From assembly GCA_028704515.1 (NCBI GenBank), contig JAQWFH010000003.1, forward strand, positions 1 through 64,000: a DNA stretch of 64,000 nucleotides, written 5' to 3'. The DNA is from Eubacteriales bacterium (GTDB taxonomy: Bacteria; Bacillota; Clostridia; Peptostreptococcales; Anaerovoracaceae). The translations under genes were made by a program, and so were the position numbers. The number at the start of each line of letters is the position of its first letter. Positions within the stretch are counted from its first letter, which is position 1. This document shows positions 9,288-48,864 of this stretch, in pieces. The notes under the pieces were generated by a model. That model was not told where the DNA came from. It saw nothing but the letters and a program-made list of their open reading frames with translations, and made no database searches.

Positions 9288-9294
9288 TAGAAAT

Positions 9295-13199: not shown

Positions 13200-13230
13200 G
13201 GTGAGGCCCTCTTCCCTGCGTATAGGGATC

Positions 13231-13678: not shown

Positions 13679-13679
13679 G

Positions 13680-13940: not shown

Positions 13941-13947
13941 AAAAAAT

Positions 13948-13996
13948 CCCCCTTTCCACATATTGCATTATATGTGTTAAAAGGGGGGTATTATTC
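13948..13996 (-). promoter_or_regulatory. Terminator-like hairpin and sigma-E-like promoter before yabP
   Basis: On the minus strand CCCCCCTTTTAACACATAT pairs with ATATGTGGAAAGGGGG and is followed by ATTTTTT and the yabP ATG, so the yabP ribosome site is in the stem. Overlapping the left arm is GAATAAT (13996-13990), a 15-bp spacer and CATATAAT (13974-13967), close to the sigma-E consensus. A transcript from it would lack the left arm. Confidence 0.6.
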
Positions 13997-14007
13997 TTTA
14001 TTATTTG

Positions 14008-15843: not shown

Positions 15844-15847
15844 TGCG

Positions 15848-16546: not shown

Positions 16547-16577
16547 GATTTCAACCCCTTTTCCCATGATAAGTTAA

Positions 16578-16606
16578 ATTATATCAAAAAATATATGTAA
16601 AGTCAA
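16578..16606 (-). promoter_or_regulatory. walR promoter
   Basis: On the minus strand TTGACT (16606-16601), a 17-bp spacer and TATAAT (16583-16578), 32 bp before the walR start. Confidence 0.75.
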
Positions 16607-16659
16607 AATTATCATCCCCCGCATATTATGTATTACTATTATTTTGGAGGCCAAATTAT

Positions 16660-17724: not shown

Positions 17725-18525
17725 TATGATTTGCATTCCAACCCCGACTTCACCTATATTGAGGTCTTTTCCCATTTCGATTTTTGCTTTTAACGATACA
17801 CAGTGGCAAGGGTAAAAATACCTTATTTGCTGATCTTTAAAATATTCTTTTGTTCTTGTAAGCCTCTCATTGTTTTCAAATAAATGAAAGCCTCCCAAGA
17901 CTCCTGAAATTTTTTGGACGCCGCATACTTGCTTGGCATGTTCCGCTATATTGCATATGCCTCGGTGTGAGCAGCCTGTTATTATGAATAGTCCTTGTTC
18001 GCCTATATATGCCAATGCTGTATCCTCAGTAAGGGAATCCGGCATAGATTTGCCATCCTTTGTTACAACCCCGATGGAGGGAATCTCCTCAAAATCATTT
18101 TTCATAGGTATCTCACCTAAGAATACAAGCCTCGGCGTTATAAACACGGGCTCCTTTGAAAGTTTAAGCCTCAGCATAGCTGATATCTCCTCTACCGAAA
18201 ATGGCGCCCCTATATCCTCTCCTTCATAATTCTTTTTATCAAAGCATCCCGGATGCGCTATAAGAGTTTTTTCGCTCAAATCGTATTCCTCTTTGAGAAA
18301 TTTAAGCCCTCGTGCGTGGTCGTTATGCCCGTGCGAAAGAATAATCGTATCTATCTTCTCCAGGAGTATTCCCATCTTGTTTGCATTAGAAATAAGAATA
18401 TCTGAATACCCCATGTCAAAGAGGAGCTTACTGTCACCTTCTTCAATATAATATGAAACGGCGGGTTCGCCCAAATAATATTGATCTATATATGTATGGT
18501 TATCGACAAGTACTGTCAGCTTCAT
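17719..18525 (-). CDS. Metallo-beta-lactamase-fold hydrolase
   Basis: Protein of 268 aa with the MBL zinc motif LSHGHNDHARG, a distal TGCSHRGICNI and a GGFHLF motif. These resemble the group annotated as 7,8-dihydropterin-6-methyl-4-(beta-D-ribofuranosyl)aminobenzene-phosphate synthase-like; the substrate is not known. The ATG at 18525 with GGAGTG upstream begins MKLTVLVDNHTYI; a longer reading frame to 18672 has no support. It is convergent with the subtilisin gene and shares its last bases, with no terminator between. Confidence 0.8.
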   Translation of the reverse strand: MKLTVLVDNHTYIDQYYLGEPAVSYYIEEGDSKLLFDMGYSDILISNANKMGILLEKIDTIILSHGHNDHARGLKFLKEEYDLSEKTLIAHPGCFDKKNYEGEDIGAPFSVEEISAMLRLKLSKEPVFITPRLVFLGEIPMKNDFEEIPSIGVVTKDGKSMPDSLTEDTALAYIGEQGLFIITGCSHRGICNIAEHAKQVCGVQKISGVLGGFHLFENNERLTRTKEYFKDQQIRYFYPCHCVSLKAKIEMGKDLNIGEVGVGMQIIL

Positions 18526-26764: not shown

Positions 26765-26782
26765 GGCTGTTCTCCTTTTACA

Positions 26783-28315
26783 CTACATCAATTTACCAAT
26801 CACTTTTTCTACAGCATCGACAATAGAATTGTCCTTTATCATTTCATCAAATTTTACGAGTTCGTTATGCATTATTATATCTTCGTCAACAGGATCTGAT
26901 AATGTTCTTATATAATCGTACGCTGCCCTTGTTCCCGCCGACAATTTTTCTATATAATCATCGCGTAACCATATCGCTTGCGCCGCCGATGCGAGCTCAA
27001 TTCCTATTACCTTTTGCGTATTGTCAAGAACCATGGCGGCAGTTCTTGCGGACGTCGTACCCATCGATACGTGATCCTCCTGATTTCCTGATGACGGGAT
27101 TGAATCTACGCATGCCGGATGGTCATATATTTTATTTTCGGAAACCATAGAAGCCGCCGCGTATTGTGCAATCATAAATCCCGAGCATACTCCGCCGTGT
27201 TTTGTAAGGAACGGAGGAAGTCCCTCCGAAAGATATGGATTTATAAGCCTTTCAGCTCTTCTCTCTGAAATATTCGCGAGTTCCGAAATTGCTATCTTCA
27301 AGAAATCAAACGTCAACGCCATAGGCTGTCCGTGGAAGTTGCCTCCCGATATAACTTCGTCTTCATCCGGGAAAATAAGCGGATTGTCTGTCACCGCATT
27401 TATTTCTGCGGAAACCTTCTTGTACGCGTATTCTATAGCATCTCTTGATGCACCATGAACCTGCGGTATACATCTGAGCGAATACGGATCCTGTACCTTC
27501 GCTGGATTTACAGGCCCTACATTTTTACTTCCGTTTAGTATATTAAGGATATTCTTAGCGGCTGTCTTCTGGCCCTCTTGACCACGGAGGTCGTGAACCT
27601 TATGGTCGAAAGCTTTTGTTATGCCGTTGAGCGCTTCCATGGTCATAGCGGCTGCAATGTCAGCAACCTTTATAAGGTTCATTGCATCGTACAAAACATT
27701 AAGCCCTATGGCCGTCATCACTTGGGTACCATTGTTGAGTGCAAGCCCTTCCTTTGCGGCAAGCTCTATTACCTTTATGCCGGCTTTGTCCATAGCTTCC
27801 TTGCTACTGATCACCTCACCCTTATACTCGGCTTTTCCTTCGCCCATCATAGTAAGTACGATGTGCGAAAGTGGTGCAAGATCTCCGGAGGAACCGAGTG
27901 AGCCCTTTTCGGGAACAATCGGGTGAACTCCTTTATTAAGCATATCTATCAGCGTATTAAGGGTTTCCGATCTTATTCCGGAGTTTCCCCTTGCAAGCGC
28001 ATTACATCTTAGGAGCATAGCCGCCCTGACCACATGTGTCGGAAGAGGATTCCCCATAGCACATGTATGGCTTATAATTAGATTTTTTTGCAATGCGGCA
28101 GTCTCTTCCTTTGAAATCAATACATTTGCAAACTGCCCAAAACCGGTAGTCAATCCGTAAATAATATCTCCGTTTTCAAGCTTTGCTTCAATATAGTCTC
28201 TTGCCTTCTTTACAGCTGCTTTCGAGTCTTCCGTTAGCTCTACCTGTTCGTGTCCTCTACAAACCTGAATAACCTGCTCAACCGTAAGATCTCGTCCGTT
28301 TATTTTAATCGACAT
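26783..28315 (-). CDS. hutH: Histidine ammonia-lyase HutH with SSG cofactor triad
   Basis: Eliminates ammonia from histidine to give urocanate; 510 aa. The self-formed MIO cofactor normally arises from Ala-Ser-Gly; here the triad is Ser142-Ser143-Gly144 in GSLGSSGDLAPL, at exactly the classical positions. Other active-site landmarks are the N-terminal YGLTTGFGQFA, LALNNGTQVMTA and NFHGQPMAL. It is the first hut gene. I recall SSG variants among anaerobe homologues, so activity is likely, but an aromatic amino-acid lyase or mutase cannot be excluded from this alone; the downstream hut genes make histidase by far the best call. Confidence 0.95.
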   Translation of the reverse strand: MSIKINGRDLTVEQVIQVCRGHEQVELTEDSKAAVKKARDYIEAKLENGDIIYGLTTGFGQFANVLISKEETAALQKNLIISHTCAMGNPLPTHVVRAAMLLRCNALARGNSGIRSETLNTLIDMLNKGVHPIVPEKGSLGSSGDLAPLSHIVLTMMGEGKAEYKGEVISSKEAMDKAGIKVIELAAKEGLALNNGTQVMTAIGLNVLYDAMNLIKVADIAAAMTMEALNGITKAFDHKVHDLRGQEGQKTAAKNILNILNGSKNVGPVNPAKVQDPYSLRCIPQVHGASRDAIEYAYKKVSAEINAVTDNPLIFPDEDEVISGGNFHGQPMALTFDFLKIAISELANISERRAERLINPYLSEGLPPFLTKHGGVCSGFMIAQYAAASMVSENKIYDHPACVDSIPSSGNQEDHVSMGTTSARTAAMVLDNTQKVIGIELASAAQAIWLRDDYIEKLSAGTRAAYDYIRTLSDPVDEDIIMHNELVKFDEMIKDNSIVDAVEKVIGKLM

Positions 28316-34729: not shown

Positions 34730-35629
34730 TTAACCGGTGAGACGATTAAAATAATCATAAACAAATTTCGTAAACAACTCCGCTTGAGGTGACAGTATAC
34801 TATCGTTCTTTTTCACAAAATAAAACGCTCTCTTTGGCATCTCTATATCCACCGGGATTACAGAAATTAAATTGTTTTTAATATGCTCTCTCGCTGCTAT
34901 TTCAGAGACAACCGCAATACCTAGCCCCCTTGAAACCGCGTGGATTATGCTTTGAGAATCCGATAATTGCGCAATTACCTTCAGCTTCTCTGGTTTAATA
35001 CCGAGCTTTTTCAAGAGTTGCTCGGCGTGATATTTTGTGGCGGAGCCCTCCTCGCGAACAATGAAATTTTCAGAATAAATATATGACTCCAAACCGTTTT
35101 TAGGTATGTGTGCATCTCCCGGAGAAATTAAGACAAGTTCTTCTGCGAGAATAAATTTATAATTACATTTATTACTTGCATCTTTGCTTCCAACGATTCC
35201 CAACTCGCAATTTTGAGCTAAGATATTGCTGATGACATCCTCCGTATCGGACTGAAATATGCTAAAGCGCATATTTGGATACACTTTGTTAAAATCAATC
35301 ATTATGTCTGGCAAAATGTAATGCGCCGGCACAGATGATGCGTATATTTCTATTTTGCCCTCGGTTGAGCCCGAACGGCTTTTTATTGAAAAAAATGCTT
35401 TTTCTTTAAGTGAAATTATATTTTTTGCGTACTCGTATAGGATCTTCCCGTTTTTTGTGAGTTTCACACCATTTCTTGTTCTTATTATAAGCTTCGTCCC
35501 AAATTCTTTTTCGAGGCTGCTTATATAATTACTTACGGACGGCTGAGATATAAATAACTCCTCAGCGGCCTTGGAAAACCCCGAAAGTTCGATTGTTTTT
35601 ATATATGCTTCCAATTGCTTAAAGTCCAT
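34730..35629 (-). CDS. LysR-family regulator, selenium-metabolism-associated type
   Basis: LysR-type regulator of 299 aa: the N-terminal helix-turn-helix FSKAAEELFISQPSVSNYISSLEKEFG is followed by a two-lobed periplasmic-binding-like effector domain. The opening MDFKQLEAYIKTIELSGFSKAAEEL resembles the LysR group that accompanies yedF in anaerobes (recall, not a search). It is divergent from the double-cubane operon and shares with it a perfect 13-bp inverted repeat (35660-35692). It is therefore the likely local activator, with an unknown effector, perhaps a sulfur or selenium metabolite. The ATG at 35629 follows GGAGG. Confidence 0.85.
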   Translation of the reverse strand: MDFKQLEAYIKTIELSGFSKAAEELFISQPSVSNYISSLEKEFGTKLIIRTRNGVKLTKNGKILYEYAKNIISLKEKAFFSIKSRSGSTEGKIEIYASSVPAHYILPDIMIDFNKVYPNMRFSIFQSDTEDVISNILAQNCELGIVGSKDASNKCNYKFILAEELVLISPGDAHIPKNGLESYIYSENFIVREEGSATKYHAEQLLKKLGIKPEKLKVIAQLSDSQSIIHAVSRGLGIAVVSEIAAREHIKNNLISVIPVDIEMPKRAFYFVKKNDSILSPQAELFTKFVYDYFNRLTG

Positions 35630-35659
35630 ATCCGCCTCCATCTTTTATTATTTTTTCTG

Positions 35660-35720
35660 ATACAAGTTATTATATATATTAATAACTTGTATTACAATAA
35701 TTAATTTTCAAACATATTAT
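35660..35720 (+). promoter_or_regulatory. LysR operator and promoter of the double-cubane operon
   Basis: ATACAAGTTATTA (35660-35672) and TAATAACTTGTAT (35680-35692) are perfect inverted repeats around TATATAT. A promoter abuts it: TTACAA (35692-35697), a 17-bp spacer and TATTAT (35715-35720). The operator just upstream of -35 is the usual place for activation by LysR proteins. Confidence 0.75.
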
Positions 35721-35774
35721 TGTATTAGAGCTATTAAAAAGCAGAATATTCGAACTAAGGGAAGGGGATTTGCT

Positions 35775-36929
35775 ATGAATAAAAATGAAGTGCCTAGTAT
35801 TTTCGAAACCTTCGGAGATGCTAGAAAGCAAGGGTTTATCGCTGTTAAGAATTTAAAGGATCAGGGGAAAAAGGTTGTGGGTGTATTTTGTACATACTCT
35901 CCTGTCGAAATAATTCTTGCGGCAGGCGCTGTTTCTGTAGGCATATGCGCATTCAGCGACGAAACAATTGCAGAGGCAGAGAAGGTTCTTCCCAAGAACC
36001 TATGTCCGCTAATCAAGTCCAGCTATGGATTTGCTGTTACTGAAAAATGCCCATATATGTACTTTGCGGACCTGGTCGTGGGCGAAACAACTTGCGATGG
36101 CAAGAAGAAAATGTACGAGCTGCTTTCAGAAATAAAAAACGTACATGTTATGCAACTGCCTCAAACTCAAGAAGATGAGGTTTCAAAGGACCTTTGGTAC
36201 AAAGAGGTTCTGCTTCTCAAAGATAGGATTGAAAAAGATTTTGGTATTACCATTACAGATGAAGATATCAAGAAAGCAATCCGTCTGAAGAATGAGGAAA
36301 GAAAGCTTCTAAAAGAATTTTATGAGCTGAGCAAGTCTTGCCCTCCTCCGATTACGGGCGCTGAGCAGCTTAAAGTACTGTATGGCTCTCAGTTTAAATT
36401 CGATATCGAACAGAAAAACAAGGAGCTTCGTGATACAATAGACAAAGTCAAGACGGATTACGCAAACGGCATTGAAAATGTCTCGAATGATGCAAAGAGA
36501 ATACTTATTACAGGCTGCCCTCTTGCCGGAGTCACTGAAAAAATAGTGACGGCCATAGAAGCGTCCGGCGGTGTTGTGGTCGCCTATGAAAACTGCATCG
36601 GCGTAAAGCCGGCTGACAGATTGGTCGATGAAGAAGGAGACCCTTATAAGGCGCTTGCCGAAAGGTATTTGAACATCGGCTGCTCCGTAATGACACCGAA
36701 CAATAAAAGAATGGAGCTGATTACAAGCCTGGTAAAGGAATTCAACGTGGACGGAGTTGTGGAAATGACCTTGCAGGCCTGCCATACATACAACATTGAG
36801 ACAAATACCGTCAGAGAATTGTTGCAAAAGCAGGATATTCCTTTTATCACCGTAGAGACCGATTACTCCACGTCGGATGTGGCACAGCTAAAGACGAGAA
36901 TGGCTGCTTTCATTGAAATGATATCATGA
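35775..36929 (+). CDS. Double-cubane cluster protein, 2-hydroxyacyl-CoA dehydratase family
   Basis: Iron-sulfur protein of 384 aa in the HgdB/FldC-like superfamily, of the single-subunit double-cubane (DCCP, YjiM-like) group. Cys residues are visible at 39 (FCTYSP), 58, 77 (NLCPLI), 92, 107 (ETTCDGKK), 248 (TGCPLAG), 274 (ENCIG), 303 and 336 (LQACHTYN); cluster ligands will be among these. VGETTCDGKKKMYELL is the family signature. The characterised DCCP carries a [8Fe-9S] cluster and reduces small molecules at low potential using its ATP-dependent activase. The activase gene follows with a 4-bp overlap, and sulfur/selenium carrier genes follow that. The physiological substrate is unknown. It is not a true dehydratase, which would need a partner subunit. 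Confidence 0.88.
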   Translation: MNKNEVPSIFETFGDARKQGFIAVKNLKDQGKKVVGVFCTYSPVEIILAAGAVSVGICAFSDETIAEAEKVLPKNLCPLIKSSYGFAVTEKCPYMYFADLVVGETTCDGKKKMYELLSEIKNVHVMQLPQTQEDEVSKDLWYKEVLLLKDRIEKDFGITITDEDIKKAIRLKNEERKLLKEFYELSKSCPPPITGAEQLKVLYGSQFKFDIEQKNKELRDTIDKVKTDYANGIENVSNDAKRILITGCPLAGVTEKIVTAIEASGGVVVAYENCIGVKPADRLVDEEGDPYKALAERYLNIGCSVMTPNNKRMELITSLVKEFNVDGVVEMTLQACHTYNIETNTVRELLQKQDIPFITVETDYSTSDVAQLKTRMAAFIEMIS

Positions 36930-37705
36930 AAAAGTATTTTGCCGGAATAGATTCAGGATCTACAATGTGTAAATCCGTTTTGTTCGACGGCGAAACAATA
37001 TTAGACATTAACACAGTTAAAACAGGGTGGAATCCTAAGCTTTCTTCTGCGGAAAGCTTAGGTGTTTTGCTGGAACGGAACAATATTAGTAAAAATGATG
37101 TCTATGTTTCGACAACAGGATACGGGCGGGAAGCTGTGGATTTTGCCGATTATTCATTTACAGAAATTACATGCCACGCATATGGAGGCATATACCTTAT
37201 ACCAAACATCCAAGGTATCATAGATATCGGCGGTCAAGACAGTAAGGTCATAGAAATAAAGAACGGAAAAGTTGTTAACTTCTTTATGAACGATAAATGC
37301 GCTGCAGGGACAGGCCGCTTTTTAAGTATGGCTTCCGAAACCTTAGATATTGACCTTAAAGATATCGACGCATTTTCAGATTTGAGCGACCCCGTTTCAA
37401 TCAACAGCATGTGCACAGTCTTTGCAGAATCTGAAATAATCGGGTTATTGGCCATGCAAAGCGACCGTTCAAAAATTATGGCGGGTGTGCTTTATTCAAT
37501 TGCCAAAAAGATACAACAGCAATCCAGCAAGTTGGATTTTTCCGAAGATATGCCTTTGCTTATGACCGGAGGCCTTACAATCTCAAAAGCACTTATCGAT
37601 ACAATAGCTACAACCATAGGCCACGAAGTTATAACTCACAAGTACGCCTTGCATGCAGGTGCTATAGGAGCTTGTATATGTGCAAACAAACAACTGCGTA
37701 AATAA
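36926..37705 (+). CDS. Acyl-CoA dehydratase activase-type ATPase (DCCP reductase)
   Basis: ASKHA-fold ATPase of 259 aa that drives single electrons to the double-cubane protein at the cost of ATP. GIDSGSTMCKSV (phosphate 1), TGYGRE, IDIGGQDSKVI (phosphate 2) and MTGGL near the end are diagnostic. Cys125 (NDKCAAGTGRF) and Cys163 (NSMCTVFAESE) are the expected ligands of the single [4Fe-4S] cluster bridging the homodimer. Its ATG overlaps the preceding stop, implying equal production. Confidence 0.92.
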   Translation: MKKYFAGIDSGSTMCKSVLFDGETILDINTVKTGWNPKLSSAESLGVLLERNNISKNDVYVSTTGYGREAVDFADYSFTEITCHAYGGIYLIPNIQGIIDIGGQDSKVIEIKNGKVVNFFMNDKCAAGTGRFLSMASETLDIDLKDIDAFSDLSDPVSINSMCTVFAESEIIGLLAMQSDRSKIMAGVLYSIAKKIQQQSSKLDFSEDMPLLMTGGLTISKALIDTIATTIGHEVITHKYALHAGAIGACICANKQLRK

Positions 37706-37723
37706 CCGGGAGGTGGAGAAGTA

Positions 37724-38845
37724 ATGATTTATTTTGATAACAGTGCGACTACAATAGCAAAACCGCCGGAGGTCGCCGAAGCAGTGCTGTACGCCATCAA
37801 CAATTTTGGCAATGCAAGTCGCTCCTTTTACGACGCCGCGTTGCTTGCGAACCGCGAAATATTTAAAACCCGTGCCGAAATTTCAGAGCTTGTAGGTCTT
37901 GATGAGCCTTTGAACGTTGCCTTTACCTGTTCAGCTACAGAAAGCCTCAATTTGGTTATCGCGGGTTTAATAAAAAAGGGAGACTCCGTGATAACTACGG
38001 TAACGGAGCACAACTCCGTTCTCCGACCTCTGTATCTGGCGGGATGCGATTTGGATTTTATTGATTGCGATGACGAAGGAGTTTTACGTTTGGACGAAAT
38101 AGAAAAATTGATAAAGCCTTCAACGAGATTTCTTGTCTGTACTCATGGCTCTAACGTAACAGGAAACATTACGGATGTAAAACGTATTTACGAGATATGT
38201 AAATCACATAATATAACTATGATATTAGATATCTCACAAACGTTTGGATTAATCGATGTCACTTTCGATATGGCAGATATTCTGTGCTTTACGGGGCACA
38301 AGGGTCTGTTTGGCCCCCAGGGGACAGGCGGTATAATCGTAAACGGTAGCTTTGACTTCGATATTGTCAAGACGGGTGGTGCCGGAGTTAAGAGCTTCGA
38401 AAGATTTCAGCAGAAGGAAATGCCTGATATTTTTGAAGCAGGTACACATAACAGTCACGGCATATACGGCTTGCAAAAGGGTGTACAATTTATAAAAAAA
38501 ATAGGAACGGGCGCTATACATTTAAAGGAACGGAAATTAGCTGAACGCTTTTACACCGGGATTAAAAATTTAAAGGGGATTACGCTTTACGGTGACTTTT
38601 CGGGATATGACCGCTTACCTGTCATATCCGTCAACCTAGAAGGGATGACTTCTGCAGATTTAGCGACAAGTCTATGGGAAAATTACGAAATAGCCACACG
38701 TGCGGGAAGCCATTGTGCACCACTGCTGCATAAAAGATTTAATACCGTTGACATGGGTATGGTGAGATTCTCATTTTCATACTTTAATACATATGAGGAA
38801 ATTGATATATGCATTTGCGCTCTTAAAAATATTGCAGGTTATTGA
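37724..38845 (+). CDS. Class V aminotransferase, cysteine desulfurase/selenocysteine lyase-like
   Basis: PLP enzyme of 373 aa. IYFDNSATTIAKP opens the fold, TEHNSVLRP and DISQTFG line the cofactor, Lys193 (FTGHKGLFGPQG) binds PLP and Cys331 (TRAGSHCAPLLH) is the persulfide/selenide-forming residue. It belongs to the SufS/CsdB-like side that accompanies yedF in anaerobes. It should release sulfur from cysteine or selenium from selenocysteine and pass it to the next two gene products. No Fe-S scaffold gene (iscU, sufU) is beside it, which argues against general cluster assembly. GGGAGGTGGAG precedes the start. Confidence 0.9.
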   Translation: MIYFDNSATTIAKPPEVAEAVLYAINNFGNASRSFYDAALLANREIFKTRAEISELVGLDEPLNVAFTCSATESLNLVIAGLIKKGDSVITTVTEHNSVLRPLYLAGCDLDFIDCDDEGVLRLDEIEKLIKPSTRFLVCTHGSNVTGNITDVKRIYEICKSHNITMILDISQTFGLIDVTFDMADILCFTGHKGLFGPQGTGGIIVNGSFDFDIVKTGGAGVKSFERFQQKEMPDIFEAGTHNSHGIYGLQKGVQFIKKIGTGAIHLKERKLAERFYTGIKNLKGITLYGDFSGYDRLPVISVNLEGMTSADLATSLWENYEIATRAGSHCAPLLHKRFNTVDMGMVRFSFSYFNTYEEIDICICALKNIAGY

Positions 38846-38856
38846 GGTGAACACTT

Positions 38857-39129
38857 ATGGAATATGTTATTACATTTAAAAACACGAACTTTGCTATAAA
38901 AGCGGAGCAGATTTTACTTGCAGACAGATTACGTGTGACGGTTATGCCCCTACCCTCCCAAATCAAAGCCGGATGCGGTATATGTCTTAGAATTAATCCC
39001 GAACAGATTGGGAGCGCCTTGAAAATTTTGAAAAGTAACCACATAGGCGAAACCGTAATATATTTAAAGAGGGTCGACAATAATAGAACCTCTTTCCAAG
39101 AAATCGTTGATAGCGCTATATTAATGTAA
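38857..39129 (+). CDS. DUF3343 protein, putative sulfur/selenium carrier
   Basis: A 90-aa alpha/beta protein of the DUF3343 family. The conserved motif KAGCGICLRI places Cys40 and Cys43 at a loop suited to carrying a persulfide or selenide. It lies 11 bp after the desulfurase-like gene and 16 bp before yedF. A carrier role is inferred from this position and the Cys pair; I know of no settled biochemistry. Confidence 0.82.
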   Translation: MEYVITFKNTNFAIKAEQILLADRLRVTVMPLPSQIKAGCGICLRINPEQIGSALKILKSNHIGETVIYLKRVDNNRTSFQEIVDSAILM

Positions 39130-39145
39130 GAAAGGGGAAATTTCT

Positions 39146-39760
39146 ATGCAAATTATTGATGTTCTAGGAAAGCCTTGCCCTATACCTGTGATAGAAGCGA
39201 GAAAAGCCTTATCTGATCAGGATGTGGAAACTGTGCTGATTAAGGCAGACAATATGATTGCCGTTCAAAATCTCGAAAGAATGGCGAATGGCTTAGGATA
39301 TAGCTTCGGTTATGAAAAAAAATCCGAAAGTCTTTTTGAAATTACAATTAATAAGGAAGGAAAAGCGCCTCCTCCAAGTATACCTTCCGATACTCTTCAA
39401 ATAGAATCCTGCGTATTGCCTACCGACCGGCTTGTCGTAGTTATAGGCCGCGATACTATGGGAGCGGGCGCCGAGGATCTTGGAAAAATATTAATAAAAG
39501 GGTTTATTTATTCATTAACGGAACTTCCTATTCCGCCGATGTATATTATTTTCCTTAATTCAGGTGCATATTTAACTTCCGAAGAAGCTAATACTATTGA
39601 TGATTTAAAAAGGCTCGAGGAAAAAGGGACGGAAATTTATACATGCGGCACATGCTCCAATTTCTATGGGCTGCAGGATAAGCTAGCGGTTGGCTCAATC
39701 ACCGATATGTACGGAATCACAGAAAAAATGGCGTCTGCCACAAACTTAATTAATATCTAA
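39146..39760 (+). CDS. yedF: YedF: TusA-like sulfurtransferase fused to a DsrE-like domain
   Basis: Two-domain protein of 204 aa. Residues 1-70 are a TusA/SirA fold with Cys11 in LGKPCPIPVIEARK; residues 93-204 are a DsrE/F-like domain with TCGTCSNFYGL (Cys167, Cys170). This architecture is the yedF family, linked by genome surveys to selenium use. It ends the operon, and a strong terminator follows. It is likely an acceptor of sulfur or selenium from the desulfurase-like enzyme; its target here may be the double-cubane protein, which is inference. No selA, selB or selD lies in the window. Confidence 0.9.
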   Translation: MQIIDVLGKPCPIPVIEARKALSDQDVETVLIKADNMIAVQNLERMANGLGYSFGYEKKSESLFEITINKEGKAPPPSIPSDTLQIESCVLPTDRLVVVIGRDTMGAGAEDLGKILIKGFIYSLTELPIPPMYIIFLNSGAYLTSEEANTIDDLKRLEEKGTEIYTCGTCSNFYGLQDKLAVGSITDMYGITEKMASATNLINI

Positions 39761-39819
39761 GTCTATTTTGGAGCGCTTCCCTTTGGTCTAGCGTTGTCAA
39801 TTCTATATAATCTTACATC

Positions 39820-39858
39820 AAAAGGGGTTGCCTAAAAGCATGAGTACCCCTTTTTTTA
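39820..39858 (+). terminator. Terminator of the double-cubane/yedF operon
   Basis: AAAAGGGGT (39820-39828) pairs with ACCCCTTTT (39846-39854), followed by a T-run to 39858. Confidence 0.85.
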
Positions 39859-39900
39859 ATCCCCTAATACTTTTGAGCCATACGCATAAAGTAAAATTTG

Positions 39901-39978
39901 TGTATTTTTATTCAATATTCTATTGACATTTGTTCTTATGGGCATATAATATCTCTATAACTTATGACTATTTATTCA
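39901..39978 (+). promoter_or_regulatory. Arginine operon promoter with two ARG boxes
   Basis: TTGACA (39923-39928), a 16-bp spacer and TATAAT (39945-39950). TGTATTTTTATTCA (39901-39914) matches the ArgR half-box TGNATWWWWATNCA exactly, just upstream of -35. A near match, TGACTATTTATTCA (39965-39978), lies downstream of the start point, just before the argG ribosome site. ArgR repression by arginine is inferred. Confidence 0.8.
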
Positions 39979-39993
39979 TTTGGAGGTATAATT

Positions 39994-41223
39994 ATGAATA
40001 ACAAATCTACTATAAAAAAAGTGGTTCTCGCATATTCGGGAGGCCTTGACACATCTATTATAATCCCATGGCTAAAGGAAAATTACAACAACTGTGAGGT
40101 AATCGCCGTTTCGGGAGACGTCGGCCAAGGCACAGAGCTGGAGGGACTTGAAGAGAAGGCAATTAAAACAGGAGCTTCAAAGCTGTATATTGAAGACCTA
40201 AAAAAAGAGTTTATTGAGGATTTTATTTACCCTACACTCAAGGCAGGCGCTGTATATGAAGGCGAATATCTTCTAGGCACCGCATTTGCCCGGCCTTGCA
40301 TAGCGAAAAGAATTACAGAAATTGCTTTAGCGGAAAACGCTGACGCTATATGCCACGGCTGCACCGGAAAAGGCAACGACCAGGTTCGTTTTGAGCTTGG
40401 AATCAAGGCGTTTGCGCCTAAAATGAAGATAATCGCTCCATGGCGCGAATGGGATATCAAATCTCGTGACGAAGAAATAGATTATGCCGAAGCACACAAC
40501 ATTCCTTTGAAGATCAGCAGAGAAACAAATTATTCGAAGGATAAAAACCTTTGGCACCTATCTCATGAAGGGCTTGACCTTGAAGATCCTGCAAATGAGC
40601 CACAATATGCAAAGGAGAATTTCCTTGAAATGTCTGTGGATCACGAAAATGCCCCGGATACTCCGGCTTATGTAAAAATTTCCTTTGAAAAAGGAATTCC
40701 GGTTGCTATTGACGGGAAAACCCTTGGACCGGTCGAGCTCATTACCGAGCTGAATAAACTGGGTGGCGAAAATGCCATAGGACTTTGCGACATCGTTGAA
40801 AATCGACTCGTAGGAATGAAAAGTCGCGGTGTATATGAAACCCCGGGAGGAGCCATTTTGTATCGAGCACATAAGGTTCTTGAAACAATCACTTTGGATC
40901 GTGACACAATTCACTACAAAGAGCTCATCGCTTCAAGGTTTGCGGAACTCGTATACTACGGTCAATGGTTTACTCCTTTGCGCGAAGCACTTTCTGCTTT
41001 CGTCGACAAGACACAAGAAACTGTTACCGGAGATGTGACTCTTAAACTTTACAAAGGCAATATGATAAACGCAGGAGTTACGTCACCTTACTCTCTCTAT
41101 TGGGAAGAGCTTGCTACATTTGATGAAGATGATGTATTCAATCACAAGGATGCTGAAGGATTTATAAATTTATTCGGGCTTCCTATAACAGTCAAAGCAT
41201 TGCTTAAAGACAATTGGAAATAA
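39994..41223 (+). CDS. argG: Argininosuccinate synthase
   Basis: Joins citrulline and aspartate with ATP to give argininosuccinate; 409 aa. The ATP-pyrophosphatase loop is [15 protein letters not shown], and [31 protein letters not shown] and [10 protein letters not shown] are family landmarks. The ATG at 39994 follows GGAGG. It is the first gene of a nine-gene arginine operon controlled by ARG boxes. Confidence 0.95.
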
Positions 41224-41281
41224 TAAAAGAAATTACTTTAACTGAACGATAAATAATATTTAAGAGATAAGAGGAAGAGAT

Positions 41282-42655
41282 ATGCTTTGGAAAGGTCGCT
41301 TTAAAAAAGAATTAAATGAACAAGCCAATGAATTTAACGCATCCATAACTATTGATAAGGCTTTGTCGAAACATGATATAGTCGCATCTGTCGCTCATGC
41401 AGAGATGCTGTGTAGGACGGGAATAATTACGGAGGCAGATAATAAGGAAATTGCGGAAGGTCTTAATCAAATTCTTTCAGAGCTTGAAGCGGGCACTCTC
41501 TCTGTTGACGAATCTTGCGAGGACATCCACACATTCGTCGAAGGTCTGCTCACCTCACGAATAGGCGATGCCGGCAAGCGTTTGCATACTGCACGAAGCA
41601 GAAACGATCAAGTGGCTACAGATTTCAGATTATACCTGCGAGATGAGGCTACAGACACTGTGGAACTGTTAAAGGATTTTTGTGAAGCTCTCTGTGAAAT
41701 AGCATCCGAGCATACATCTTCCATAATGCCCGGATATACGCATTTGCAAAGAGGGCAACCCGTTACCTTCGGGCATCATCTTATGGCATACGTCTACATG
41801 TTCATTCGTGATATCGACAGAATTAAGGATGCCTGCAAGCGCATGAATGTAATGCCGCTTGGCTCGGGCGCTCTTGCCGGAACAACCTTCTCTATAAACA
41901 GGAATATTACCGCAGAAATCCTTGGCTTCGATAAGCCTTGCGAGAATTCAATGGACGGAGTATCCGACAGAGATTTTGTTCTTGAGCTATCCTTTTGTTT
42001 ATCTGTAGTAATGACCCATATTTCACGACTTTGCGAGGAAATTATAATGTGGAATTCATGGGAATTCAAATTTATTGAGCTTGATGATAGCTATACTACG
42101 GGCTCAAGTATAATGCCTCAAAAGAAAAACCCCGATATTGCGGAGCTTGCACGCGGCAAAACAGGTCGCGTGTACGGTTCCCTTGTATCCTTACTTACAG
42201 TATTTAAGTCGCTGCCCCTCGCTTACAACAAAGATATGCAGGAGGATAAGGAACCCCTTCTAGACAGCTTCAAAACTGTAAATGATTGTCTCTTGCTTAT
42301 CGCACCTATGATGGCAACAATGACTGTAAACAAGGAAAATATGCGTACGGCAGCGGCAAAGGGCTTTATTAACGCAACCGACTGCGCCGATTATCTTACG
42401 AAAAAGGGCATGCCTTTTAGAACGGCTTACAAGATAACCGGGGAGCTCGTTGCATACGCAATAGACAACAATAAAACATTAGAGCAGCTAACACAGGAAG
42501 AATTCAACAAATTTAGCGATCTCTTCGCAGACGATATATATATTGATATATCCTTGGAAAACTGTGTCGCCAAAAGAACCTCAGAGGGAGGTCCCTGCGA
42601 AGAATCGCTTCTCAAACAAATAAGACTTGCAAAGGAGGCGATAGGCCGTGCATAA
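41282..42655 (+). CDS. argH: Argininosuccinate lyase
   Basis: Splits argininosuccinate into arginine and fumarate; 457 aa of the fumarase/aspartase superfamily. HTARSRNDQVATDFRLY, the catalytic TSHL-equivalent region GYTHLQRGQPVTFGHH and the signature GSSIMPQKKNPDIAEL are present. Its end overlaps argC by 8 bp. Confidence 0.95.
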   Translation: MLWKGRFKKELNEQANEFNASITIDKALSKHDIVASVAHAEMLCRTGIITEADNKEIAEGLNQILSELEAGTLSVDESCEDIHTFVEGLLTSRIGDAGKRLHTARSRNDQVATDFRLYLRDEATDTVELLKDFCEALCEIASEHTSSIMPGYTHLQRGQPVTFGHHLMAYVYMFIRDIDRIKDACKRMNVMPLGSGALAGTTFSINRNITAEILGFDKPCENSMDGVSDRDFVLELSFCLSVVMTHISRLCEEIIMWNSWEFKFIELDDSYTTGSSIMPQKKNPDIAELARGKTGRVYGSLVSLLTVFKSLPLAYNKDMQEDKEPLLDSFKTVNDCLLLIAPMMATMTVNKENMRTAAAKGFINATDCADYLTKKGMPFRTAYKITGELVAYAIDNNKTLEQLTQEEFNKFSDLFADDIYIDISLENCVAKRTSEGGPCEESLLKQIRLAKEAIGRA

Positions 42656-43583
42656 GATATTTATCGACGGAAAAGAAGGAACAACAGGTCTTCGTATATA
42701 TGAAAGGTTAAGCTCCTACGAAGGCATTGAGCTTATGCTTCTTTCCGAAGAAAAAAGAAAGGATCCGCAGGCGAGAGCAGAAATGATAAACTCCTCGGAT
42801 ATTACCTTCCTATGTCTACCCGACGATGCCGCAAGAGAATCGTTGGCTCTTGTGAAAAACGAGCATACAAAGGTTATAGATACCTCTACAGCTCATCGCA
42901 CCTCCGACGCCTTCACATACGGCTTTCCCGAGCTTTCACAGCATCAAAGAGAAGAAATAAAAGGCTGCAAACGCCTTGCAGTACCAGGCTGCCATGCAAG
43001 CGGCTTTATTGCTCTCATATACCCCCTCGTCAAGCTTGGAGTTTTAGACAAAGCTTCTCTTATGAGCTTTTGGTCAATTACCGGCTACTCAGGAGGAGGG
43101 AAAAAAATGATTGCTGATTATGAAGCTAACGACAGATCTCCTGCTCTTTCTGCCCCGCGAAGCTATGCTTTATCACAGAGCCATAAGCATCTGAAGGAAA
43201 TTAAGCATATGACTTCTCTGACGAGAGAGCCTATTTTTTCTCCTATTGTAAGCGATTTCTATAGCGGTATGCTCGTCTCAATACCTCTTTTCAGTGAGCA
43301 ATTGAAAGGAGCTTTGACACCAAAACAGATATCAGCGCTATATGAAGAATATTATAACGATCAGAAGCTGCTCAGCGTCTCTCCTTATGAGGAAGGCAAC
43401 GGCAGCTCCGGCGCAAACAAATTGAGCGGCAGTGATGCCATGAAGATAAAGGTATGGGGCAACGAGGAAAGAATAACCCTTACAGCTTTGTACGACAACC
43501 TTGGCAAAGGTGCCTCAGGCGCTGCTATTCAATGTATGAATTTGATGTTAGGGTTTGATGAAACAAAAGGCCTTTGCCTTTAA
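42648..43583 (+). CDS. argC: N-acetyl-gamma-glutamyl-phosphate reductase, short (type 2) form
   Basis: NADPH-dependent reduction of N-acetylglutamyl phosphate to the semialdehyde; 311 aa. IFIDGKEGTTGLRIYERL is the nucleotide loop and the active Cys is in AVPGCHASGF. The short form with this N-terminus belongs to the less common ArgC branch, best known in proteobacteria, rather than the roughly 345-aa form typical of Firmicutes. The start is GTG with AAAGGAGG upstream, inside the end of argH. Confidence 0.92.
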   Translation: MHKIFIDGKEGTTGLRIYERLSSYEGIELMLLSEEKRKDPQARAEMINSSDITFLCLPDDAARESLALVKNEHTKVIDTSTAHRTSDAFTYGFPELSQHQREEIKGCKRLAVPGCHASGFIALIYPLVKLGVLDKASLMSFWSITGYSGGGKKMIADYEANDRSPALSAPRSYALSQSHKHLKEIKHMTSLTREPIFSPIVSDFYSGMLVSIPLFSEQLKGALTPKQISALYEEYYNDQKLLSVSPYEEGNGSSGANKLSGSDAMKIKVWGNEERITLTALYDNLGKGASGAAIQCMNLMLGFDETKGLCL

Positions 43584-43597
43584 GAAAGGGAATTACT

Positions 43598-44818
43598 ATG
43601 AAAATTATATCCGGCGGAGTTTGTGCCGCAAAAGGTTTTACCGCAGCCGGTATTTACTCCGGAATTAAAAAAAATAAAGAAAAAAAAGATCTCGCTCTTA
43701 TAAAAAGTTCTGTTAAAGCAAATGCAGCCGTCGTATTTACGACAAACAATGTAAAAGCTGCGCACATCGGTGTAAGCGCAAAACATATTTCCGACGGCAT
43801 GGCTGAAGCTATTCTCTGCAACAGTGGGAATGCAAACACCTGCACCACCAATGGAGCTGAAATTGCTCTGAACACATGCAAGCTCGTCGGTAAGTCCCTA
43901 CACATAAATGCCTCCGATGTTTTAGTCGCTTCAACGGGAGTCATCGGTCAGGATTTAGCCCCACAGCCGTTTGAAACCGGGATACCGCAGCTCGTATCGT
44001 TATTAGACGATTCGGAAGAAGCTTCAAATAGTGCCGCCAGCGCTATAATGACAACTGACCTTGTTGATAAGCAATACGCTGTCAGTTTTGAGCTTGCCGG
44101 TAAAACATGTACAATCGGTGCCATTGCAAAAGGATCCGGGATGATATGCCCAAACATGGCGACTATGCTCGCATTTGTCACGACAGATGTGGCTATTTCT
44201 TCCGAGATGCTCCAAAAGGCGTTATCAGATGACGTACAGGATAGCTTTAATATGGTAAGCGTTGACGGTGATACCTCAACGAATGATACCTGCATAATAC
44301 TGGCAAACGGTCTTGCCGGAAATCCAAAGATAATCGAAGAAGGGGCCGATTTTGACGTATTCAAGGAAGCTCTTGCAAAAGTTACAATCGCCCTCAGCCG
44401 CATGATAGCGAAGGATGGTGAGGGTGCTACAAAGCTTATAGCATGCGAGGTAACCGGATCTGTCGACAAAAAATCCGCCGCTGCCATCGCAAAGAGCGTT
44501 ATAAAATCAAGCCTTGTAAAGACTACAATACTGGGTGCAGATGCTAACTGGGGGCGTGTGCTTTGTGCAATAGGCTACAGTGATATAGATATTAATCCTG
44601 ATAAAATAGACGTTGCCTTTGCTTCCGCTGCAGGGAAAATAATGGTGTGCGAAGGCGGAGCCGGAGTCAATTTCTCCGAAGATCTGGCAAAGAAAATTCT
44701 TCTTGAGGATGAAGTGGAAATAAAAATTTGCTTGAACGTTGGGACAGAGAAAGCGACAGCATGGGGCTGTGACCTTACTTATGAGTATGTAAGAATTAAC
44801 GGAGACTATAGAAGCTGA
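43598..44818 (+). CDS. argJ: Bifunctional glutamate N-acetyltransferase/ornithine acetyltransferase
   Basis: Recycles the acetyl group from acetylornithine to glutamate and can start the pathway from acetyl-CoA; 406 aa. The self-cleavage site with Thr as nucleophile is KGSGMICPNMATMLAF; GANWGRVLCAIGYS and the C-terminal TAWGCDLTYEYVRINGDYRS complete the match. No argA or argE is in the window, fitting the cyclic pathway. The ATG at 43598 follows AAAGGG. Confidence 0.95.
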   Translation: MKIISGGVCAAKGFTAAGIYSGIKKNKEKKDLALIKSSVKANAAVVFTTNNVKAAHIGVSAKHISDGMAEAILCNSGNANTCTTNGAEIALNTCKLVGKSLHINASDVLVASTGVIGQDLAPQPFETGIPQLVSLLDDSEEASNSAASAIMTTDLVDKQYAVSFELAGKTCTIGAIAKGSGMICPNMATMLAFVTTDVAISSEMLQKALSDDVQDSFNMVSVDGDTSTNDTCIILANGLAGNPKIIEEGADFDVFKEALAKVTIALSRMIAKDGEGATKLIACEVTGSVDKKSAAAIAKSVIKSSLVKTTILGADANWGRVLCAIGYSDIDINPDKIDVAFASAAGKIMVCEGGAGVNFSEDLAKKILLEDEVEIKICLNVGTEKATAWGCDLTYEYVRINGDYRS

Positions 44819-44841
44819 TATTCACAAAGGAGATGAAAAAA

Positions 44842-45693
44842 ATGAATCTTGCTACGGATATTCGTGCGCAGGTGCTTATCGAAGCCCTTCCGTACATCCA
44901 AAAGTACTACAATAAAATACTCGTCGTTAAATACGGCGGCAATGCGATGATAAATGAGGATCTTAAAAAAGCGGTAATGGGTGATTTGGTTCTGCTTTCT
45001 CTGATTGGCATCAAGGTTGTACTCGTTCACGGTGGCGGCCCGGAAATATCGGATTACCTTTCTAAAATAGGTAAAGAAAGTGAATTCAAGGACGGTCTTC
45101 GCGTTACGGATAAGGATACAATAGAAATCGTTCAAATGGTACTCGCAGGAAAGATAAATAAAGATCTTGTTCACCTTATAGATAATACCGGCGGCAAAGC
45201 TATAGGCCTTTGCGGTATTGACAACAAGCTGATTGAAGCAAAAATGCTTGATGAAGGCTTGGGCTTTGTAGGCGAGATTACTAATATCAATCCCGAGCCG
45301 ATTCTCGACCTGCTTGACAAGGGCTATATTCCCGTTGTTGCTACAGTAGGCTGCGACAGCGACGGAAATGTTTATAACATCAATGCCGATACCGTAGCTT
45401 CAAGACTTGCCGGCACTTTAAAAGCGGAGAGTTTAATATCGATGACAGATATACGCGGGCTTTTGAGGGATAAAAATGACGATTCGACCCTGATTTCCGA
45501 GGTACAGGTGAGCGATGCTCCTCGTCTGATAAAGGAAGGCGTTATCTCCGGAGGAATGATCCCTAAGGTTGAAAGCTGTATAGAGGCTATAAGAAGAGGC
45601 GTAAAACGTGTATTTATAATAGACGGCAGAGTTCCCCATTCCATACTCATGGAGGTTCTTACTGACCGAGGCATCGGTACGATGTTTAAATAA
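44842..45693 (+). CDS. argB: Acetylglutamate kinase
   Basis: Phosphorylates N-acetylglutamate; 283 aa amino-acid-kinase fold. VVKYGGNAM, LVHGGGPEIS, GLRVTDKDTIEIVQMVLAGKINKDLV and GGMIPKVESCIEAIRRGVKRVFIIDG are diagnostic. The ATG at 44842 is chosen because AAAGGAG lies eight bases upstream; the in-frame ATG at 44833 touches that site. This is usually the feedback-regulated step in cyclic pathways, but I cannot confirm arginine sensitivity from the sequence. Confidence 0.95.
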   Translation: MNLATDIRAQVLIEALPYIQKYYNKILVVKYGGNAMINEDLKKAVMGDLVLLSLIGIKVVLVHGGGPEISDYLSKIGKESEFKDGLRVTDKDTIEIVQMVLAGKINKDLVHLIDNTGGKAIGLCGIDNKLIEAKMLDEGLGFVGEITNINPEPILDLLDKGYIPVVATVGCDSDGNVYNINADTVASRLAGTLKAESLISMTDIRGLLRDKNDDSTLISEVQVSDAPRLIKEGVISGGMIPKVESCIEAIRRGVKRVFIIDGRVPHSILMEVLTDRGIGTMFK

Positions 45694-45705
45694 GGCGGTG
45701 AAAGC

Positions 45706-46866
45706 ATGAATACAAAATTTCTGGATAAAACATATATAAGCAATACCTATAAGAGATTTGATGTAGTCTTTACACATGGCTCCGGAGCTCTTCTCTTTGA
45801 TGACCAGGGAAAAGAATATATCGATCTTTCGGGCGGAATTGCAGTAAATACCTTTGGAATAAATGACGAAGAGTGGGTTGCTGCTGTTTGTGCTCAGGCA
45901 AAAAAATTGCAGCACGTGTCAAACCTTTACTTTACAGAACCTCAAACAAAGCTTGCGGAAATTCTTTGCAGCAGGACAGGCGCAAAGAAGGTGTTTTTTT
46001 CAAACTCCGGAGCTGAAGCAAATGAATGTATGATAAAGGCAGCAAGAAAATATTCGTCCGTAAGCGGAAATACCTCAAATATTATAACCCTTAAAAATTC
46101 CTTCCACGGTCGAACGATCACCACACTCTCGGCAACCGGGCAGGAAAATTATCACAAGGACTTCGGCCCTTTCTTAGACGGCTTTTTCCATGCCGAGGCA
46201 AATAATTTTTCGGATATGGAAACACTGGTCGAAAGCGCAAAACCTTGCGGAATTATGATAGAGCTTATACAAGGAGAGGGCGGAATATATGTCCTGGAAA
46301 AAGAATATGTGAAGCAGCTTGAAGCTTTATGCAAAGAAAAGGACATCCTACTCATGATTGACGAGGTACAGACAGGAAATGGACGCACAGGTCAGCTGTA
46401 CGCATTCCAAGAATACGACATAAATCCGGATCTAGTCTCAACCGCAAAGGGGCTTGCAGGAGGACTCCCTATGGGTGCAACCTTGATGTTTGAGAAGGCA
46501 GAGAATGTCCTGGGCGCAGGCGATCACGGATCAACCTTTGGCGGAAATCCCGTTGCTGCAGCGGCTGCAGTAAGCGTTTTATCGCGCATCGACGATAGAC
46601 TGTTATCCGATGTAAAAGCTAAATCGCGCTATATAATCGACTCGCTCAACAACGCAGAAGGAGTTTGCGAAGTATCAGGTTTAGGGCTTATGCTCGGTAT
46701 TCTGCCAAGCAAAGCTGAAGCTAAAGATATAGTTGAAAATTGTCTTAAAAGAGGGGTTTTGCTTTTGACCGCAAAAGATCGCATCAGGCTTTTACCCCCA
46801 TTAAATATCGGAATGAACCATATAAAAAAAGCCATGGCTATACTTAAGGAGGAACTTGCAAAATGA
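45706..46866 (+). CDS. argD: Acetylornithine aminotransferase
   Basis: PLP-dependent transfer of an amino group from glutamate to N-acetylglutamate semialdehyde; 386 aa. IDLSGGIAVNTFG, SNSGAEANECMIKAAR, NSFHGRTITTLSATGQ, IDEVQTGNGRTG and the PLP Lys in STAKGLAGGLPMGA are present. It ends in a 4-bp overlap with argF. Confidence 0.95.
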   Translation: MNTKFLDKTYISNTYKRFDVVFTHGSGALLFDDQGKEYIDLSGGIAVNTFGINDEEWVAAVCAQAKKLQHVSNLYFTEPQTKLAEILCSRTGAKKVFFSNSGAEANECMIKAARKYSSVSGNTSNIITLKNSFHGRTITTLSATGQENYHKDFGPFLDGFFHAEANNFSDMETLVESAKPCGIMIELIQGEGGIYVLEKEYVKQLEALCKEKDILLMIDEVQTGNGRTGQLYAFQEYDINPDLVSTAKGLAGGLPMGATLMFEKAENVLGAGDHGSTFGGNPVAAAAAVSVLSRIDDRLLSDVKAKSRYIIDSLNNAEGVCEVSGLGLMLGILPSKAEAKDIVENCLKRGVLLLTAKDRIRLLPPLNIGMNHIKKAMAILKEELAK

Positions 46867-47771
46867 AGCATCTATTAAAAATGTCCGATCTTTCAGGCGA
46901 GGAGATAACTGAAATACTAAATCTCGCCGATCAGCTGAAGTATGAGCATCTTAACGGCATACCTCATGATCATCTCAAAGGCAAAACTCTTGGAATGATA
47001 TTTGAAAAGTCTTCTACAAGGACTCGTGTATCTTTTGAATCCGGCATGTTTCAACTCGGAGGCTATGCCCTTTTCTTGAGCTCAAACGACCTTCAAATCG
47101 GCCGAGGCGAGCCGATAGAAGACACAGCTAGGGTACTTTCGCGTTATTTGGACGCAATCATGATAAGAACCTTTGAGCAGGAGAAACCGGAAGCCTTAGC
47201 CAAATACGGTTCCATTCCTATTATAAACGGACTTACAGACTATTCACATCCTTGCCAGGTTTTGGCGGATTTGATGACAATAAGAGAATATAAGGGTTAT
47301 TTAAAAGGACTCAAGCTTGCCTACATAGGCGACGGGAACAATATGGCAAATTCCTTGATCGTAGGAGCAATTAAGACCGGTATGAGCATTGCGGTTGCCT
47401 GCCCTAACGGATGGCTGCCCGATGCCGAACTTATAGAATGGGCACATAATAACGGTACTCTTACCATAACGGAAAATATTCTCGAAGCCACGAAAGATGC
47501 GGATGTCGTCTGTACTGATGTATGGACATCCATGGGGCAAGAGGGCGAAAGCGAAGGTCGCAAAAGAGCCTTTCATGACTACCAAATCAATGACAATGTA
47601 ATGGCTGTTGCAAAAGATGACGCAATAGTTCTTCATTGTTTGCCGGCTCACAGAGAAGAAGAAATCACCGCCAAGGTTTTTGAGGAGCATGCCAAGGAAA
47701 TTTTTGATGAAGCCGAAAACAGGCTTCACGCACAGAAAGCTATTCTTGTAAAACTTCTCGCACAGAAATAA
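46863..47771 (+). CDS. argF: Ornithine carbamoyltransferase
   Basis: Makes citrulline from ornithine and carbamoyl phosphate; 302 aa. The carbamoyl-phosphate loop FEKSSTRTRVSFE, HPCQVLADLMTI and the ornithine motif HCLPAHREEEIT are intact. It directly precedes carA and carB, its suppliers of carbamoyl phosphate, and the first codons overlap the argD stop. Confidence 0.95.
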   Translation: MKHLLKMSDLSGEEITEILNLADQLKYEHLNGIPHDHLKGKTLGMIFEKSSTRTRVSFESGMFQLGGYALFLSSNDLQIGRGEPIEDTARVLSRYLDAIMIRTFEQEKPEALAKYGSIPIINGLTDYSHPCQVLADLMTIREYKGYLKGLKLAYIGDGNNMANSLIVGAIKTGMSIAVACPNGWLPDAELIEWAHNNGTLTITENILEATKDADVVCTDVWTSMGQEGESEGRKRAFHDYQINDNVMAVAKDDAIVLHCLPAHREEEITAKVFEEHAKEIFDEAENRLHAQKAILVKLLAQK

Positions 47772-47793
47772 ATCATTAATATGGAGAATGCCA

Positions 47794-48864
47794 ATGAAAA
47801 AAGTTTACCTTGTACTATCTAACGGAAAAATATTTGAAGGAGAAAGCTTCGGTTACGAAAAAGAGGTTTTCGGCGAACTCGTATTTACGACTTCCATGAC
47901 GGGTTATATCGAAACTCTTTCCGATCCCGGGTTTTGTGGGCAAATTGTAGTTTCCACCTTCCCTCTTATCGGTAATTACGGAGCCATGGAGGAAGATATG
48001 CAAAGCGCTATCCCGTCATTAAAAGCTCTTGTCGTTCGCCATATGTGCGAACAACCTTCGAATTTCCGTGCTACCGGTACTCTTGACACATTTATGAAAA
48101 AATACGGCATTGTAGGCATTTCCGGCATAGATACTCGTGAGCTTACCTCTATAATAAGAGAGCACGGATCACAGGTCGCCTTTATATGTGAGAGCGTTAC
48201 CGATCAAATTATCGAGCTTGCAAAAAATTATAAAATAATCGAAGCTTGCAAAGAAGTCGGCACCAAAGAAATTAAAACCTTTAGCTCCGAAGGATGTTCG
48301 AAATATAATGTTACCGTTATAGATTATGGGGTGCAAAAGAATCTTATCGATAACCTTATCCACCTGGGGTGCAATGTGTCTCTAGTCCCCCGCTACACTA
48401 CTGCCGAGGATATTATTTCTACTAACCCCGACGGAATTATTCTTTCGGGAGGACCAGGCAATCCCCAGAACCATACAGAAAGCATAGAGATAATTAAAGC
48501 ACTTATAGGGAAAAAACCTATTCTCGGCGTTTGCCTCGGTCACCAGCTTCTTGCTCTTGCAATGGGCGCGCAGACCTTTAAGATGAAGTGCGGGCATAGA
48601 GGTGAAAACCAGCCTGTTATTCAGCCCGGAACCTGCCGTACATATATAACAAGTCAAAACCACGGATATGCTGTTGATGCTGGATCCCTTCCCCCTTTTG
48701 CAAAGGTGCTGTATGAAAATGCAAACGATGGAACATGCGAAGGGATAGAATATCCGAAGCACTGTGCATTCTCTGTACAATTTCGTCCACAGGCAAGCGA
48801 TGCTTCCGGCGGTTCAAGCCCTGTATTTGATCACTTTATAAAGATGATAGGAGGCGAAATATAA
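47794..48864 (+). CDS. carA: Carbamoyl-phosphate synthase small subunit, degenerate glutaminase triad
   Basis: CarA normally hydrolyses glutamine and channels ammonia to CarB. This 356-aa protein has the full two-domain length and retains the nucleophile Cys247 in LGVCLGHQLL and the oxyanion loop SGGPGNP. The other two triad residues are changed: the motif that is HPEAS in functional CarA reads RPQAS, with Arg331 for His and Gln333 for Glu. The usual GxNHPV loop is GENQPV. Glutaminase activity is therefore unlikely (inference from family mechanism). It may serve as a structural partner for ammonia-fed CarB. The ATG at 47794 has GGAG upstream; the stop overlaps carB by one base. Confidence 0.9.
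   Translation: MKKVYLVLSNGKIFEGESFGYEKEVFGELVFTTSMTGYIETLSDPGFCGQIVVSTFPLIGNYGAMEEDMQSAIPSLKALVVRHMCEQPSNFRATGTLDTFMKKYGIVGISGIDTRELTSIIREHGSQVAFICESVTDQIIELAKNYKIIEACKEVGTKEIKTFSSEGCSKYNVTVIDYGVQKNLIDNLIHLGCNVSLVPRYTTAEDIISTNPDGIILSGGPGNPQNHTESIEIIKALIGKKPILGVCLGHQLLALAMGAQTFKMKCGHRGENQPVIQPGTCRTYITSQNHGYAVDAGSLPPFAKVLYENANDGTCEGIEYPKHCAFSVQFRPQASDASGGSSPVFDHFIKMIGGEI

Follow-up and report, generated by a model that had tools for sequence, protein, structure and literature searches.

Among the described systems closest to the locus presented here, the genes for YedF, DUF3343, and the regulator LysR_Se were proposed as selenium genes by Lin et al. in 2015 (PMC5322559), with Slackia Shel_25420-25470 given as functionally linked neighbours that encode an activase, DUF3343, a selenocysteine (Sec) lyase, YedF, a further DUF3343, and an HGD-D protein. 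The double-cubane cluster protein (DCCP) has been called provisionally selenium-linked and, together with its reductase, was drawn in Mlp clusters (PMC10418091), a LysR-like gene lies within the DCCP transcription unit of Calderihabitans (PMC7306483), and the biological function of DCCP was stated to be unknown in 2025 (PMC11971306). Here, we analysed the first 64,000 nucleotides (the window) of contig JAQWFH010000003.1 from an Anaerovoracaceae bacterium (GCA_028704515.1), in which an operon brings together a DCCP, its activase, a desulfurase-like enzyme, DUF3343, and YedF. This gene set is of a known kind, its selenium link having been published in 2015 with the Slackia cluster, and the coupling of DCCP to selenium carriers is likewise not new, given that neighbourhood (PMC5322559) and the provisional link (PMC10418091); what the analysis offers is a strong, testable link of DCCP to selenium. 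Judged from sequence comparisons, the module very probably serves selenium, and we lean towards reading the operon as a LysR_Se-controlled module that supplies and handles selenium in a glycine-reductase anaerobe able to decode Sec, with DCCP perhaps giving selenide for SelD.

The five genes run co-directionally on the plus strand (35775-39760) with LysR_Se divergent on the minus strand, and, as in the initial annotation, these genes and the terminator are all present, with gaps of at most 18 bp; the DCCP and activase genes overlap by 4 bp, and the subsequent intergenic gaps are 18, 11, and 16 bp. The features are as follows (for the pyridoxal phosphate (PLP) enzyme, the cut-off is given further below).

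34730-35641, minus strand: LysR_Se, selenium metabolism-associated LysR-family regulator (NF040786 LysR_Sec_metab, 303.5 bits, cut-off 250)
35660-35692, no strand: palindrome ATACAAGTTATTATATATATTAATAACTTGTAT with perfect arms between the LysR_Se and DCCP genes, candidate LysR operator
35775-36929, plus strand: DCCP, double-cubane-cluster-containing anaerobic reductase of the compact 384 aa type (curated model NF040772 double_cubane, 540 bits, cut-off 350)
36926-37705, plus strand: ATP-dependent activase (DCCP reductase) with cluster cysteines C125 and C163 (TIGR00241, 231 bits, cut-off 125)
37724-38845, plus strand: Cys desulfurase/Sec lyase-like PLP enzyme, group II, with RAGSHCA, K193, and C331 (TIGR01977, 375 bits)
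38857-39129, plus strand: DUF3343/Se_S_carrier small protein with invariant P33 and C40-G41 (PF11823, 72 bits, gathering score 25)
39146-39760, plus strand: YedF with TusA-like (CPIP) and DsrE-like (CGTC) domains (TIGR03527, 196 bits, cut-off 110)
about 39820-39854, plus strand: intrinsic-terminator-like hairpin and T run (fold -13.1 kcal/mol, z -2.28)

From the absence of selA, selB, and selD nearby, the initial annotation had argued against both a plain cluster-assembly operon and a selenoprotein operon. That absence misleads, because the same genome carries a full Sec-decoding set, namely selA, selB, selD, and a tRNA-Sec (UCA), on contig 18 rather than on the window contig. Moreover, the SelD of this genome has a selenocysteine through an in-frame TGA (context GGUAAK), and the glycine reductase cluster of contig 18 encodes a GrdA with Sec (CFVU) and a GrdE-type protein with STUGTC. 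Along positions 36919-49681 of that contig, selB-selA-tRNA-Sec stand beside the cluster with its Sec-containing GrdA and GrdE-type proteins, and the Sec-containing SelD follows. Immediately after the selD TGA, a fold resembling a selenocysteine insertion sequence was no stronger than in shuffles, and no selenoprotein genes were seen within the window among in-frame TGA readthroughs. As to the selenium association of yedF and the LysR gene, the earlier claim is borne out by the NF040786 score and by the genome survey (PMC5322559).

Nor does the module stand apart from selenoprotein synthesis, as had been supposed, since single operons of relatives combine its genes with selD, selB, or selA. With ACT for the activase and CSD for the desulfurase/lyase-like gene, the orders within the family are DCCP-YedF-ACT-CSD-DUF3343 (L012, L013), DCCP-DUF3343-ACT-YedF-CSD (L011), and selA-ACT-DCCP-YedF (L014), and a congener (G048) has a single run of YedF-CSD-DUF3343-SelD-SelB-TrxB-SelA with DCCP-DUF3343-ACT on another contig. 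Genome G020 shows DCCP-ACT-DUF3343/SelD-YedF; there (L009, 1951-3258), DUF3343 is apparently fused to SelD in one open reading frame of 435 aa directly before YedF. Among the 80 named DCCP loci, those of the Lacrimispora type read DCCP-ACT-SelD-LysR_Se-CSD-YedF-DUF3343, with SelB next in three. A maximum-likelihood tree of DCCPs (a quick method, no bootstrap) pairs the window DCCP with that of L062 inside a clade of 17 rows with a support of 99, which also holds the Lacrimispora operons, Sporomusa L066, Treponema L075, and termite-gut deltaproteobacteria. A clade apart is made up of a second DCCP type of greater length (about 425-440 aa), mostly arranged DCCP-DUF3343-activase (L008, L011, L017, L020, L046, L048, L051, L053, L056, and L060), with the CSD gene between DCCP and activase in L017.

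These arrangements also bear on whether the lyase and carriers mature DCCP itself by furnishing its [8Fe-9S] cluster with the bridging sulfide (or a selenide). Operon proximity would suit such a role, and the double cubane does have a unique bridging sulfur (PMC11971306), but many genomes have DCCP-activase pairs without a nearby lyase or YedF, and YedF-CSD-DUF3343 stands with selD, selA, or selB and without DCCP at L018 and L025, as it does in the congener (L007), where DCCP is on another contig. We regard this explanation as very improbable, and the earlier suggestion that sulfur or selenium is delivered into the DCCP cluster found no support in this analysis.

At the genome level, DCCP closely follows selD. 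In a family sample of 119 genomes, selD was present in 19/20 with DCCP vs 21/99 without (Fisher p 4e-10, which ignores phylogeny), the one DCCP genome without it being G108, which is 80% complete; for YedF, the figures were 30/31 with vs 10/88 without. Across a phylum sample of 358 genomes, 107/108 with DCCP had selD vs 130/250 without (Fisher p 8e-23, again ignoring phylogeny), as did 46/50 of the named DCCP genomes. Of 14 fixed control genomes, just two, E. coli and M. jannaschii, gave scores above cut-off for NF040772, and the identical pair did so for PF11823 and for selD. As a specificity control, a HadC-like dehydratase also tracked selD (14/15 genomes, p 0.02), so the selenium claim for DCCP rests on the shared operons too.

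Several points weigh against this reading. The genome counts behind the p-values are phylogenetically non-independent, and, given the HadC-like control, part of the association of DCCP with selD may reflect lifestyle. The refuting condition set earlier, homologous operons that regularly lack the carrier genes, had a mixed outcome: nearly every DCCP genome has selD, yet of the 80 named DCCPs, 29 have DUF3343 and 10 have YedF within 5 kb on their own strand, so that most DCCPs have no adjoining YedF and the carriers are often elsewhere. The known in vitro substrates of DCCP are acetylene, azide, and hydrazine (PMC11971306), and its putative tie to selenium comes from genome comparison. No selD was detected in the DCCP genomes L062, L070, and L072 (metagenome-assembled genomes, MAGs), L121 (Aeromonas), and G284, the completeness of which is unchecked. 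Of these, L062, a Defluviitaleaceae MAG, holds the nearest relative of the window DCCP (72% identity), and its operon comprises DCCP-ACT, an 86-aa CPCC protein, an ArsP_1 permease, an NMT1-type ABC transporter, a 110-aa protein, CSD, and DUF3343; with the ArsP_1 and NMT1-type transporter genes, a sulfur or other role becomes possible. Also seen at this locus (8589-17814) were a BFD-like ferredoxin gene preceding DCCP and the lack of a Pfam match for the 110-aa protein.

The same loci speak for a sulfur module, in which desulfurase and carriers would deliver sulfur, DCCP and activase would reduce a sulfur compound, and the link to selenium would be secondary. Apart from L062, where both the DCCP-ACT and the CSD-DUF3343 pair are retained beside transporter genes, an isolate of Aeromonas finlandensis (L121) has DCCP-ACT-DUF3343 with selD not found (completeness unchecked), and DUF3343 also occurs in selD-less organisms (PMC5322559). 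Set against these are the selD counts in both the phylum sample and the named genomes, the family of the LysR_Se regulator, the operons shared with selD or selB, and the full Sec set of the window genome, which together make a sulfur module quite unlikely.

Catalytic residues are conserved in the encoded proteins. The window DCCP, the only NF040772 match in its genome, matched the solved structures 6ENO and 7YYL at E 1e-83, and its eight cysteines (C39, C58, C77, C92, C107, C274, C303, and C336), aligned with those of 7YYL, are invariant among 109 DCCPs; by sequence it is a member of the double-cubane cluster protein family, with an [8Fe-9S] cluster and reductase activity predicted. The activase is a BcrAD_BadFG ATPase with 1HUX, 4EHT, and 7YYL chain E as structural relatives, and both cysteines of its intersubunit cluster are kept in 76/76 relatives. 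The PLP enzyme, a class-V aminotransferase of the desulfurase/Sec-lyase type that resembles SufS/CsdB structures, falls 2 bits short of the TIGR01977 (EF2568) cut-off of 377 and fails the SclA Sec lyase model NF040779 (305.6 vs 525 bits), though its PLP lysine K193 and mobile-loop cysteine C331 are conserved in 24/24 relatives. YedF, the sole YedF over cut-off in the genome, has CPIP at 11-14 and CGTC at 167-170, and both its CPxP and CGxC motifs are invariant across 31 sequences; these motifs, like K193 and C331, lie where they had been placed initially.

For DUF3343 (the old name of PF11823), the CGIC noticed earlier is indeed present at 40-43, but it is not a conserved pair. In an alignment of 42 rows, P33, C40, and G41 alone of the tested positions are invariant, and a conserved redox dithiol was rejected, with the first cysteine in 42/42 and the second, C43, in 9/42. 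With C40 invariant and C43 not, a single-cysteine carrier is to be expected, and this is what the protein looks like from its alignment. Its predicted model (pLDDT 92) has a ferredoxin-like alpha/beta order with C40 between strands 2 and 3; a structural search returned only a generic ferredoxin-like/PII layout, with all matches weaker than E 0.001, and the structure therefore gives no clue to function. A second DUF3343 of the same genome (contig 17, 37511-37717), with a single CG cysteine, is flanked by D-Ala-D-Ala carboxypeptidase-like and aminopeptidase-like genes.

Taken as a selenium module, the operon would work as follows. LysR_Se would sense the selenium status and control the divergent operon, probably via the palindrome at 35660-35692; the PLP enzyme would liberate selenium from selenocysteine (or sulfur from cysteine), and DUF3343, through its single cysteine, and YedF, through its CPxP cysteine and CGxC pair, would hold protein-bound perselenide or persulfide. 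The activase would hydrolyse ATP to recharge DCCP, which in turn would give very low-potential electrons for a reductive step yielding selenide for SelD in trans, and SelD would feed SelA/tRNA-Sec and thereby selenoproteins including GrdA, GrdE, and SelD itself. In this scheme the sequence of transfers and the operator are inferred, as is, most notably, the identity of the DCCP substrate as a selenium compound that would be reduced to selenide. The earlier outline of chalcogen release and a carrier relay, coupled to DCCP and activase under a selenium-associated LysR, is upheld. That DCCP and activase form an ATP-driven reductase turning carrier-bound or elemental selenium into selenide is a possibility we put forward tentatively. 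The Se(0)/selenide couple lies far below ferredoxin, so an ATP-charged reductant would be justified.

Alternatively, DCCP and activase may split C-Se (or C-S) bonds, for instance in methylated selenides, for selenium salvage, with the lyase and carriers collecting the selenium. MtaA/CmuA-like methyltransferase genes lie near the DCCPs of L047, L066, L074, L078, L079, L088, and L097, and Mlp clusters, many with DCCP, are tied to methyl-selenide metabolism (PMC10418091); moreover, DCCP has relatives that perform radical reductions and a distant one, TudS, that strips sulfur from 4-thiouridine (PMC11971306). Even so, the window operon has no methyltransferase, the pairing is a minority among DCCP loci (5/80 of the named ones, by the strand and distance limits above), and demethylation could be achieved by corrinoid methyltransferases with no need of DCCP. 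We hold C-Se cleavage to be unlikely, if somewhat less so than a sulfur module.

Should DCCP indeed form selenide, the [8Fe-9S] protein would gain its first physiological function, and a gap in the pathway leading up to SelD would be filled in anaerobes, YjiM-YjiL of E. coli being a case in point. The near-exclusive presence of DCCP in selD genomes, together with operons joining DCCP, SelD, and SelB, yields a specific and testable claim on its role, which extends to E. coli with its minimal module yjiM-yjiL-ytiA.

As regards control, the 33-nt palindrome ATACAAGTTATTATATATATTAATAACTTGTAT, with 13/13 arm positions paired and not mentioned in the initial annotation, lies between the divergent starts of LysR_Se and DCCP and is probably the LysR operator. 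Allowing up to 3 mismatches, this is the single site of the window, where 100 shuffles gave 0, and also of the whole genome, and thus no wider regulon would use exactly that site; no similar palindrome was seen beside LysR_Se of relatives. An Rfam search of the window gave zero matches. Elsewhere in the window (24716-28315), urocanase and histidine ammonia-lyase-type genes fit an amino-acid fermenting anaerobe.

In comparison with known systems, the Slackia heliotrinireducens neighbourhood (Shel_25420-25470; PMC5322559, Table 1) shares with the window an activase, DUF3343, a Sec lyase family protein, YedF, and a 2-hydroxyglutaryl-CoA dehydratase-type protein. There, the locus tags are consecutive, selD is near, and a second DUF3343 is present, whereas the window has one DUF3343, a divergent LysR_Se beside DCCP, and selA, selB, and selD on another contig. 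The Lacrimispora-type operons (L064, L065, L069, and L083) match the window in DCCP, activase, CSD, YedF, DUF3343, LysR_Se, and DCCP clade, but include selD in all four, with selB next in three of the fetched stretches. The DCCP and DCCP-reductase of Carboxydothermus hydrogenoformans (6ENO, 7YYL) have in common with the window pair the HGD-D family, the eight invariant cysteines, and the ATP-dependent activase, though the solved DCCP is of the longer type (about 421 aa, against 384 aa). Both yjiM and yjiL of E. coli were altered along with formate hydrogenlyase genes in a ygfI deletion (PMC9068703), which is consistent with their anaerobic co-expression and no more. Lastly, the E. coli yjiM-yjiL-ytiA module, found in nearly all complete genomes of that species, resembles the window in its consecutive DCCP, activase, and DUF3343 genes, but differs in that no lyase or YedF is annotated under the match, and so represents the minimal form.

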